NCBI GenBank assembly: GCA_903926465.1
Contig: CAIYJE010000131.1
Location: 1-64,000 of the forward strand
Direction: 5' to 3'
DNA: 64,000 bases
Source of the DNA: an uncultured Planctomycetales bacterium
Lineage (GTDB): Bacteria > Planctomycetota > Planctomycetia > Isosphaerales > Isosphaeraceae
Part shown: piece after piece, positions 11,699 to 62,670 of the stretch
How the letters are laid out: each line of letters starts with the position of its first letter
Position numbering within the stretch: position 1 is the stretch's first letter
Notes under the pieces: generated by a model
The model's database searches: none
The model's input: the letters and a program-made list of their open reading frames with translations, nothing else
Told to the model about the DNA's origin: nothing
Program-made: the position numbers and the translations under genes

Positions 11699-12862
11699 TC
11701 ACGATCCTGCGCGGTGGAAAATGCTGGGCTCCGGCCGATCGAGCTTGAAGAGTCGGACGTGGAGTTGGGCTTCCAGGGCGGCCACATCGCCCAGCGTCCG
11801 CACGGCAGACTCGGTCTGCGTGCCTGATGCCCGCGTGGGGTAAGCCTGGACGGCCGCAATTCGATCCATCAGGTCGGGATGGGCCGGATCGGTCGGTCCG
11901 TTGTTGCTGGAGAGAATCTGGTGTCTCATGGCGGTGAGCAGCGATTCTGGAAGGTGTCCCCAGAACTGTCTGAACAACGCGTATAGGTTTGGCAGCGCGT
12001 CTGATTTCATCTCATAGGAGCACAAAACCTCACGGAACAGCGGCTGCACCATGGCGGTTTTCACCAGCGCAGAGGCCACGGCGTCTCCGCCGACGATCGA
12101 GGCCGCCAGCCGATCCGCGCGAGATTCTTGGCCGCGAACCACCGGTCCCAGGCATGCGTGACCGATGGCGAGCGAAAGCCTGGACCAGATCCAGAGCGGA
12201 CTGAGTTGCTCCCAGAAGCCGGGAGCCTCGGTTCTTGGCTCCAGCTCCAGATCCAAAGTCTCTACAAACCGGATGGCCCAGGCGGTGCGGGCCGTATCGC
12301 GCCGGGCCAGATGGGCCAGTTCATGCACCAGCACCGCACGCAGTTCCGGCAAGGTGAGCACGTCGATGAGCGGGAGTCCGAGCATCAGTCCCGGTTGGTT
12401 GTTTGAATACCCCTGATCCACCACGCCACAACAGGGAAGATAGGTGAGGTAGATCCGTTTTGGAGGCCGCGTGCCGAGCTTTTTGGATAAAGTCGTGATC
12501 TCGTCGAAGAGCCGAGGTGCCTGGCCGCGTGTGAGGGGCATGCCCAGGTCTTCGGTCGCTTGGTGAACGCGTGTTGGGATCCAAAATCCGCCCAGGGTTC
12601 GGACCACGTCGCGCAGGTTTCGGACATCAATCTCATCCCGAAGCCAGCGAGCCAGCACGGGAAAGATGCCTCCCAGCAGCAGCATCACGCCTGTGAGCAG
12701 TGCGGTGATAACCGGGTAGAGATAGCGCAAGCCATCAAGCACAACGGAACGAGTGGTCAGGCCCAGGCCGGTTGCCTCCAGAGGCGCACTGGTTGGTCTG
12801 TCGCCAAGTTGGGCCGCGTTCCCCGTTTGTTGGTTCGTCCGCACCGATTCCTCAGCCGTCAC
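11699..12862 (-). CDS. M48-family (BlaR1/HtpX-like) membrane metallopeptidase
   Basis: The ~388-residue protein has a membrane helix near residues 50-72 and a zinc metallopeptidase domain with HELAH (180-184) and the third-ligand segment QESRAD (E246, D250), the signature of M48/M56-type gluzincins. A BlaI-family repressor is transcribed divergently 176 bases away, an arrangement typical of BlaR1/MecR1-type sensor proteases that inactivate BlaI. There is no visible penicillin-binding sensor domain; the C-terminus (~300-388) is unassigned. I chose GTG 12862 because the frame's first ~31 codons (to 12955) cross a promoter and palindrome. It probably acts at the inner membrane; the ligand is unknown. 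Confidence 0.85.
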   Translation of the reverse strand: MTAEESVRTNQQTGNAAQLGDRPTSAPLEATGLGLTTRSVVLDGLRYLYPVITALLTGVMLLLGGIFPVLARWLRDEIDVRNLRDVVRTLGGFWIPTRVHQATEDLGMPLTRGQAPRLFDEITTLSKKLGTRPPKRIYLTYLPCCGVVDQGYSNNQPGLMLGLPLIDVLTLPELRAVLVHELAHLARRDTARTAWAIRFVETLDLELEPRTEAPGFWEQLSPLWIWSRLSLAIGHACLGPVVRGQESRADRLAASIVGGDAVASALVKTAMVQPLFREVLCSYEMKSDALPNLYALFRQFWGHLPESLLTAMRHQILSSNNGPTDPAHPDLMDRIAAVQAYPTRASGTQTESAVRTLGDVAALEAQLHVRLFKLDRPEPSIFHRAGS

Positions 12863-12889
12863 TGCGCCGACAGATGTAAAACCTGGGGG

Positions 12890-12918
12890 TTGATATACCC
12901 AGACAATTGTCTTAGGAT
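12890..12918 (+). promoter_or_regulatory. blaI promoter with palindromic operator in its spacer
   Basis: TTGATA (12890-12895) and TAGGAT (12913-12918) are separated by exactly 17 bases. The 3' part of that spacer is the perfect 12-bp palindrome AGACAATTGTCT (12901-12912). A repressor bound there would block RNA polymerase. It sits between the divergent BlaI-type repressor and M48 protease genes, so it is a natural candidate BlaI operator controlling both. The promoter and palindrome are read directly; the regulator match is inferred. Confidence 0.7.
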
Positions 12919-13038
12919 AAAGTATTGTTGAACCTGAGTCGACCCACAGGCTCAAAATGCAGTAGCGATTTTTTTGAGACGGTTGTCCCGGTTTCAGAGC
13001 GTTCGATTCGCGATTTTTTTCCGTTTGTTCGACGAGAC

Positions 13039-62009: not shown

Positions 62010-62670
62010 AGGGTGAGACCCTCGTTGTAAATCACAAGTCTTGCCGAGGCTGCACACTTCTGGGAATCAGAAGACACGTGCGTGCTCTGGTGGCATGGAT
62101 GAGGCCGTCTGCGGGTCATCCGTGAAGTGTGACAAATGACAACGGCGTGCTCTGGTGGCATGAATGAGGCCGTCTGCGGGTCATCCGTGAAGTGTGACAA
62201 ATGACAACGGCGTGCTCTGGTGGCATGAATGAGGCCGTCTGCGGGTCATCGGTGAAGTGAAAGAAAGGGTGACTGCGTGCGGCAGGCCAAACGTTCACGC
62301 AAGCCGGACGATCATCGGTTGTCTGTCTGCCGCTATGAGAAAGAAATGTTTGGCGGTAACAGGCGTGTTGAACCTCGGTTTCCAATCCAGCTCAATCCTT
62401 CGAATGATTGGCTTGACCTTGATTGTCGAGGGTATCTGGCGCGATGAGTTTCATGGGCATCCATCAGAAAACGGTGCGGCGATACCGCGGACCTGGCGAT
62501 TGACACTGACATGCTCAACTGAGCAAAAAGCGAGTTCGACCGGAAAACGTAGAACACCAGAGCAGGCCCTCTCCCACGGATGACCCCGAAGACGGCGTCA
62601 TTCGTGCCACCAGAGCAGGCCTGTCCCCGAGGGCCTCAAGACACGTGATTGACAACGAGGGTTTCGCCCT
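62010..62670. repeat. 661-bp element with long inverted ends
   Basis: The left end (AGGGTGAGACCCTCGTTG, 62010 on) and the reverse complement of the right end (AGGGCGAAACCCTCGTTG, from 62670 leftward) match closely, as do their next ~80 bases, including the CTCTGGTGGCA and GACGGCxTCATTC-type stretches (inverted copy about 62574-62620). The inside holds three 65-bp tandem units and ~300 bases with no gene. It resembles a non-autonomous mobile element; no clear target-site duplication was seen. Confidence 0.65.
62080..62260. repeat. 65-bp tandem repeat, three copies
   Basis: Units start at 62080, 62145 and 62210; the first two are full and the third is cut after ~50 bases. Each has GCGTGCTCTGGTGGCAT, AGGCCGTCTGCGGGTCATC and GTGTGACAAATGACAAC. 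Identity between units is very high. The units are contiguous without spacers. Confidence 0.92.

Follow-up and report, generated by a model that had tools for sequence, protein, structure and literature searches.

A short dyad, GACANNTGTC, very likely forms an operator within the spacer of the blaI promoter described here, and GACAATTGTC, judged from its letters and its conservation, most probably serves as the operator for autoregulation by the BlaI-family repressor whose gene lies downstream. This gives a testable, sequence-level regulatory site in planctomycetes, plus a conserved promoter, TTGAC-N17-TAGGAT. We call the window the whole stretch of 64,000 nucleotides that was analysed; its relevant features are collected in Table 1. 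The sequence-only reading had described two promoter hexamers, TTGATA and TAGGAT, separated by a 17-base spacer (12896-12912 as read from the sequence) that contains a perfect palindrome, and these coordinates and letters proved exact. The flanking genes were also borne out, with a BlaI gene (PF03965) on the plus strand and a divergent M48 peptidase gene on the minus strand. The window contains 19 perfect 12-bp palindromes, compared with a mean of 19.8 (range 12-27) in 20 first-order Markov simulations. Palindromes of this length are therefore at chance level and comparative evidence was needed; the significance of this one comes only from its conservation. The exact 12-mer AGACAATTGTCT occurs a single time in the whole 6.9-Mb genome.

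Table 1. Features of the blaI-M48 intergenic region and its flanking genes in the window
Feature	Positions	Strand	Remarks
Divergent membrane-type M48 metallopeptidase gene	11699-12844	-	PF01435, 40.7 bits; start uncertain
Upstream box GACAGATGTA	12869-12878	.	Differs from GACANNTGTC at one position; 33 bp upstream of the main putative operator
-35 hexamer TTGATA, blaI promoter	12890-12895	+	TTGA kept in 30/30 orthologous loci
Perfect palindrome AGACAATTGTCT	12901-12912	.	Fills the downstream end of the spacer
Conserved core of the putative operator, GACANNTGTC	12902-12911	.	Arms invariant in 30/30 orthologous promoters
-10 hexamer TAGGAT, blaI promoter	12913-12918	+	Abuts the putative operator; TAGNAT in 30/30 orthologous loci
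Possible third box GACGGTTGTC	12978-12987	.	One mismatch; on the downstream side of the blaI promoter
BlaI/MecI/CopY-family repressor gene, 141 aa	13045-13470	+	PF03965; start set by orthologs

The dyad keeps its place in orthologous blaI promoters

We searched 59 related genomes with the protein and took the 30 top-ranked loci, the window included. The choice was made by protein score and DNA was not used; the encoded proteins share 63-100% identity with the window BlaI. GACA-NN-TGTC was found in all 30 of these top-ranked Isosphaeraceae loci, at one fixed offset from the -10 hexamer. Each of them carries [GT]ACANNTGTCT upstream and, when anchored on it, all 30 match ACANNTGTCTTAGNAT with no row dropped. 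The eight arm positions (GACA and TGTC) are invariant, and GACANNTGTC-TTAGNAT is present throughout with TTGA ahead of it at a spacing of 17 (25 loci) or 18 (5 loci). In the 18-base spacers the -35 shifts and the dyad stays beside the -10. TTGAC is found in 29 loci, the exception being the window itself (TTGATA). Most flanking columns hold 0.03-0.4 bits, which indicates that the loci are well diverged, and between 90 and 198 bases separate the -10 from the point where the protein match begins. The palindrome and its position are hence kept beside orthologous blaI genes, the check that had been proposed from the sequence, and it is this outcome that makes an operator inside the promoter spacer very likely. 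The perfect 12-mer fared only partly well as the unit: its GACA and TGTC arms are invariant, but the outer A is present in only 19 of the 30 loci (C in 8, G in 3) and the central pair varies (CT 9, GT 8, AT 5, AC 3, AG 3, TT 1 and TG 1). The conserved unit is the 10-mer GACANNTGTC.

Regarding the wider family, 34 of the 37 same-family genomes have a BlaI ortholog (E<=1e-30), and the site is present in 32 of these 34, namely the 30 loci plus L095 and L097; G032 and G022 are the two that lack it. A separate search in a named collection, whose loci are in part those of the 59 genomes and provide no independent evidence, gave 32 loci with the box in 28; they include Singulisphaera acidiphila, Paludisphaera soli, Aquisphaera insulae and Tautonia sociabilis. 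The occurrence of the site at every locus of a set chosen by score, amid near-random flanks, and in 32 of the 34 family genomes with an ortholog argues for autoregulation. Among the sequences examined, the titles of L146-L148 (Candidatus Kuenenia stuttgartiensis) look wrong, as the protein search places them in the window's family.

One could argue that the palindrome is due to chance, or that it is a coding by-product of an N-terminally extended M48 frame. The palindrome count in the window would agree with this, and so would the M48 frame, for which GTG at 12844 or 12862 are start candidates and which stays open up to a TTG at 12955, crossing the palindrome. However, invariant arms between near-random flanks already refute this explanation, the site persists in 9 loci with an M48 gene at a distance above 550 bp, and the conserved part of M48 (with the HExxH motif kept in aligned relatives) begins around residue 62, which places the palindrome probably upstream of the true M48 start. 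We consider such an origin extremely improbable.

Beyond the family, G048 (family f4, 47% identity) keeps TACATGTGTC in the corresponding position, flanked by TTGACA and TAGCAT, a further point in favor of the autoregulatory reading. Against it stand G044 (family f4, 46% identity), which has no box and a clearly related protein, and, within the family, G032, where two related copies (about 50% identity) are both devoid of the box, with a TTGACA/TAGAAT-like promoter still present in the sequence. Also within the family, G022 shows no box in the about 135 bases of upstream sequence present, and G039 (family f4, a weaker relative) has three-base-spacer boxes only.

Dyad spelling and repressor groups

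The window BlaI belongs to the BlaI/MecI/CopY family, with PF03965 (Penicillinase_R) spanning the whole protein at 95.3 bits against a cut-off of 22.6 (residues 12-124 of 143). MecI and BlaI structures match it at E 5e-11 to 1.6e-10, among them MecI 1sd6 at E 5e-11 over residues 6-123. In all 17 aligned orthologs the recognition-helix segment reads YATVATLL.

Of 65 more distantly related BlaI loci in those 59 genomes, 63 were alignable, and we scanned 300 bases upstream of each (2 of the 63 had fewer than 300). GACANNTGTC was found upstream of just one, L097, with 49% identity and also counted among the orthologs. Other spellings were TACANNNTGTA in 8 loci, GACANNNTGTC in 7 and TACANNTGTA in 6. 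Proteins with a WAYTT..TLL.RL helix, in our own grouping of rows, showed TACANNNTGTA in 6/9 and GACANNTGTC in none. The promoter and its boxes are confined to this BlaI ortholog group, and across planctomycete BlaI groups the spelling of the dyad seems to track the recognition-helix sequence. If arm base and spacer length do follow the recognition helix, as suggested here, this could provide a predictive operator code for a large repressor family. Dyads of the other spellings can be seen at L102, L107-L110 and L112, and at L015, L220, L227, L235, L239 and L251.

The putative operator followed by the -10 (GACANNTGTCNTANNATA) was found at 28 places, spread over 26 of the 59 genomes, and 26 of the 28 are this blaI promoter. 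Together with the invariance of YATVATLL and the single hit among the less related loci, this argues for a site read by BlaI at its own gene. In the window's own genome we counted 38 GACANNTGTC sites and 39 for the reversed control, and none of the 37 sites outside the window's locus has a second box within 55 bp. With no excess over the control and no pairs, an own-genome regulon was rejected and we claim no wider one; this counts against the autoregulatory reading. Paired boxes were detected at 27 places in 17 genomes (1 place for the control), 12 of them being this promoter and 15 lying elsewhere; genes preceded by such other pairs code for a TlpA-like protein, a T2SSF protein, HlyD-like proteins and a BlaI. 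Some genera may thus have a small regulon. In two Singulisphaera-type genomes, paired GACANNTGTC boxes lie just before a T2SSF-domain gene (L174, 3321-3353; L175, 3012-3044), and in the related genomes L176, L177 and L178 they lie beside a HlyD/CusB-like gene (HlyD was found by Pfam in L176 and L178, the two that were scanned).

The 15 of 27 paired places away from blaI would suit a different explanation, in which another protein uses the motif to control blaI and BlaI itself binds elsewhere. This seems unlikely, given that the site tracks this BlaI ortholog group and that the motif is tied to BlaI independently in two genomes of another family: at L179 and L180, both unalignable, a pair of GACATTTGTC boxes immediately precedes a BlaI gene, and in L180 an M56 peptidase gene comes after this BlaI gene.

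ACA-NN-TGT dyads are the binding sites of BlaI-family dimers. Under autoregulation, a dimer of BlaI seated at 12902-12911 would cover the stretch that separates the -35 from the -10 hexamer, and bound BlaI would exclude RNA polymerase from the blaI promoter, giving negative autoregulation.

A second box accompanies a directly divergent M48 gene

We scored M48 as directly divergent when the N-side of its match lay within 550 bases, as it does in 15 of the 30 loci. A second box lies 32-35 bp upstream of the putative operator in 14 of these 15 loci and in none of the 9 with M48 farther than 550 bp, where the main site persists, counts that are not independent because related genomes share history. 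The fifteenth locus, L089, has GAGAGCTGTC at 35 (row L037, same genome). The scan for a second box found none at the 6 loci without a detected M48, of which L033 has a two-mismatch GACGTCTGGC. The paired boxes look like a divergon with one operator per side and, at the level of sequence, there is more than one putative operator between the divergent genes, as in bla-type divergons. The third box GACGGTTGTC was reported in the window only, among the 30 loci scanned, and may be due to chance.

At loci with a directly divergent M48, another dimer, bound to the box about three helical turns upstream, would probably act on the M48 side or cooperate with the first; that the upstream box serves M48 is inferred. 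It is also quite possible that this box serves blaI alone as a further operator, through cooperative binding or looping, with M48 outside BlaI regulation. Such an explanation bears on the upstream box alone and can hold alongside autoregulation at the main site. We looked for the own box predicted for a relocated or displaced M48 within 700 bp upstream of its conserved region and found it in 0/10. M48 hence does not need the box, which counts against an obligatory BlaI-M48 regulation, and the paired operators reported at C. thermocellum BlaI targets (in the excerpt of PMC8457756 on operator sites) favor a further operator for blaI alone. A role for blaI alone would not, however, predict the contrast between adjacent and farther M48 loci.

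Regarding gene content, M48 is present in 32/36 genomes with a BlaI ortholog vs 0/23 without, and within the family alone in 30/34 vs 0/3, although the absences are soft because some genomes are incomplete. In genus g6 a related BlaI is kept, M48 is absent and the operator is absent where readable (G032). This co-occurrence, and the joint lack of M48 and operator in g6, support a two-gene BlaI-M48 unit, in which the membrane M48 would act as BlaR1 does, proteolysing BlaI, and BlaI would repress both genes via the paired operators. We put this forward tentatively and regard it as rather doubtful, with M48 as a candidate partner protease of BlaI. The repressor/M48-peptidase gene pair exposed here may represent a BlaR1-free variant of BlaI signalling. 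A search for an M48 promoter, covering minus-strand -35/-10 hexamers near the upstream box in 16 loci, gave no convincing candidate.

Relation to known BlaI and CopY systems

We compared the site with published systems. Our searches of an open-licence library gave no paper on this operator site, on BlaI in Isosphaeraceae or on a BlaI-M48 pair. Published BlaI repressors act via operators between divergent genes, that of B. licheniformis having three operators in a divergon (as excerpted from PMC3305447), a precedent that favors autoregulation here. As far as that excerpt describes them, the bla and mec divergons of Staphylococcus and Bacillus licheniformis share with the system proposed here a BlaI-family dimer, a short ACA-NN-TGT dyad and more than one operator per intergenic region, between divergent genes (PMC3305447). 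Unlike them, the window has arms ending in G/C instead of T/A; its divergent partner is an M48 peptidase and not a beta-lactamase or PBP, and a scan of six window proteins, namely BlaI plus five neighbours, gave no match to an M56 BlaR1 sensor-protease. Besides, the cleavage site of BlaR1-controlled BlaI/MecI is Asn101-Phe102 (PMC9834060), while the aligned residues of the window BlaI are His-Leu, with H102 and L103 invariant in 17/17 orthologs. In Clostridium thermocellum, BlaI_0696 and BlaI_1845 show autoregulation, very small regulons and paired operator sites, according to the part of PMC8457756 that deals with them. The window resembles them in its putative autoregulation, an apparently very small regulon and its paired boxes, and differs in motif, theirs being GTCTAT/GACTAT repeats; the C. 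thermocellum blaI genes sit with BlaR1 (PMC8457756, same part).

The sequence-only reading, which set the site against operators of the TACA...TGTA type, had proposed a distinct operator, a claim that did not survive comparison with the CopY family. The CopR/CopY consensus RNYKACANNTGTMRNY, in the section of PMC7253601 that gives it, allows G first in the arm and C last, and GACANNTGTC fits it, differing by one base pair per arm from TACANNTGTA. The published CopY-family operator KACANNTGTM, an ACA-NN-TGT inverted repeat closed by G/T and A/C, covers, as given in such excerpts, the GACANNTGTC present in 30/30 loci, which does not define a distinct operator class. The pneumococcal cop box likewise starts with GACA, and its two copies lie 40 bp apart, as counted from the EMSA oligo given in PMC7253601. 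CopY copper repressors have a C-terminal Cys-X-Cys metal-binding motif, unlike the window BlaI, which has no cysteine in its sequence and hence no such motif; no copper exporter was found among the scanned window neighbours, and the CopY_TcrY model reached 71.6 bits, under its cut-off of 121.95. Judged by sequence, the putative operator varies a type of switch that is already known, here with an M48 gene as the neighbour where BlaR1 would otherwise be.

In several orthologs (e.g. L028 and L034) an inverted repeat lies just after the -10; a leader hairpin was dropped as a candidate, as single-sequence folds gave no common stem across the 30 loci. Finally, positions 62106-62231 of the window contain a tandem repeat, in which a stretch of at least 60 bases recurs unchanged at a 65-base spacing (around 62131 and 62196).
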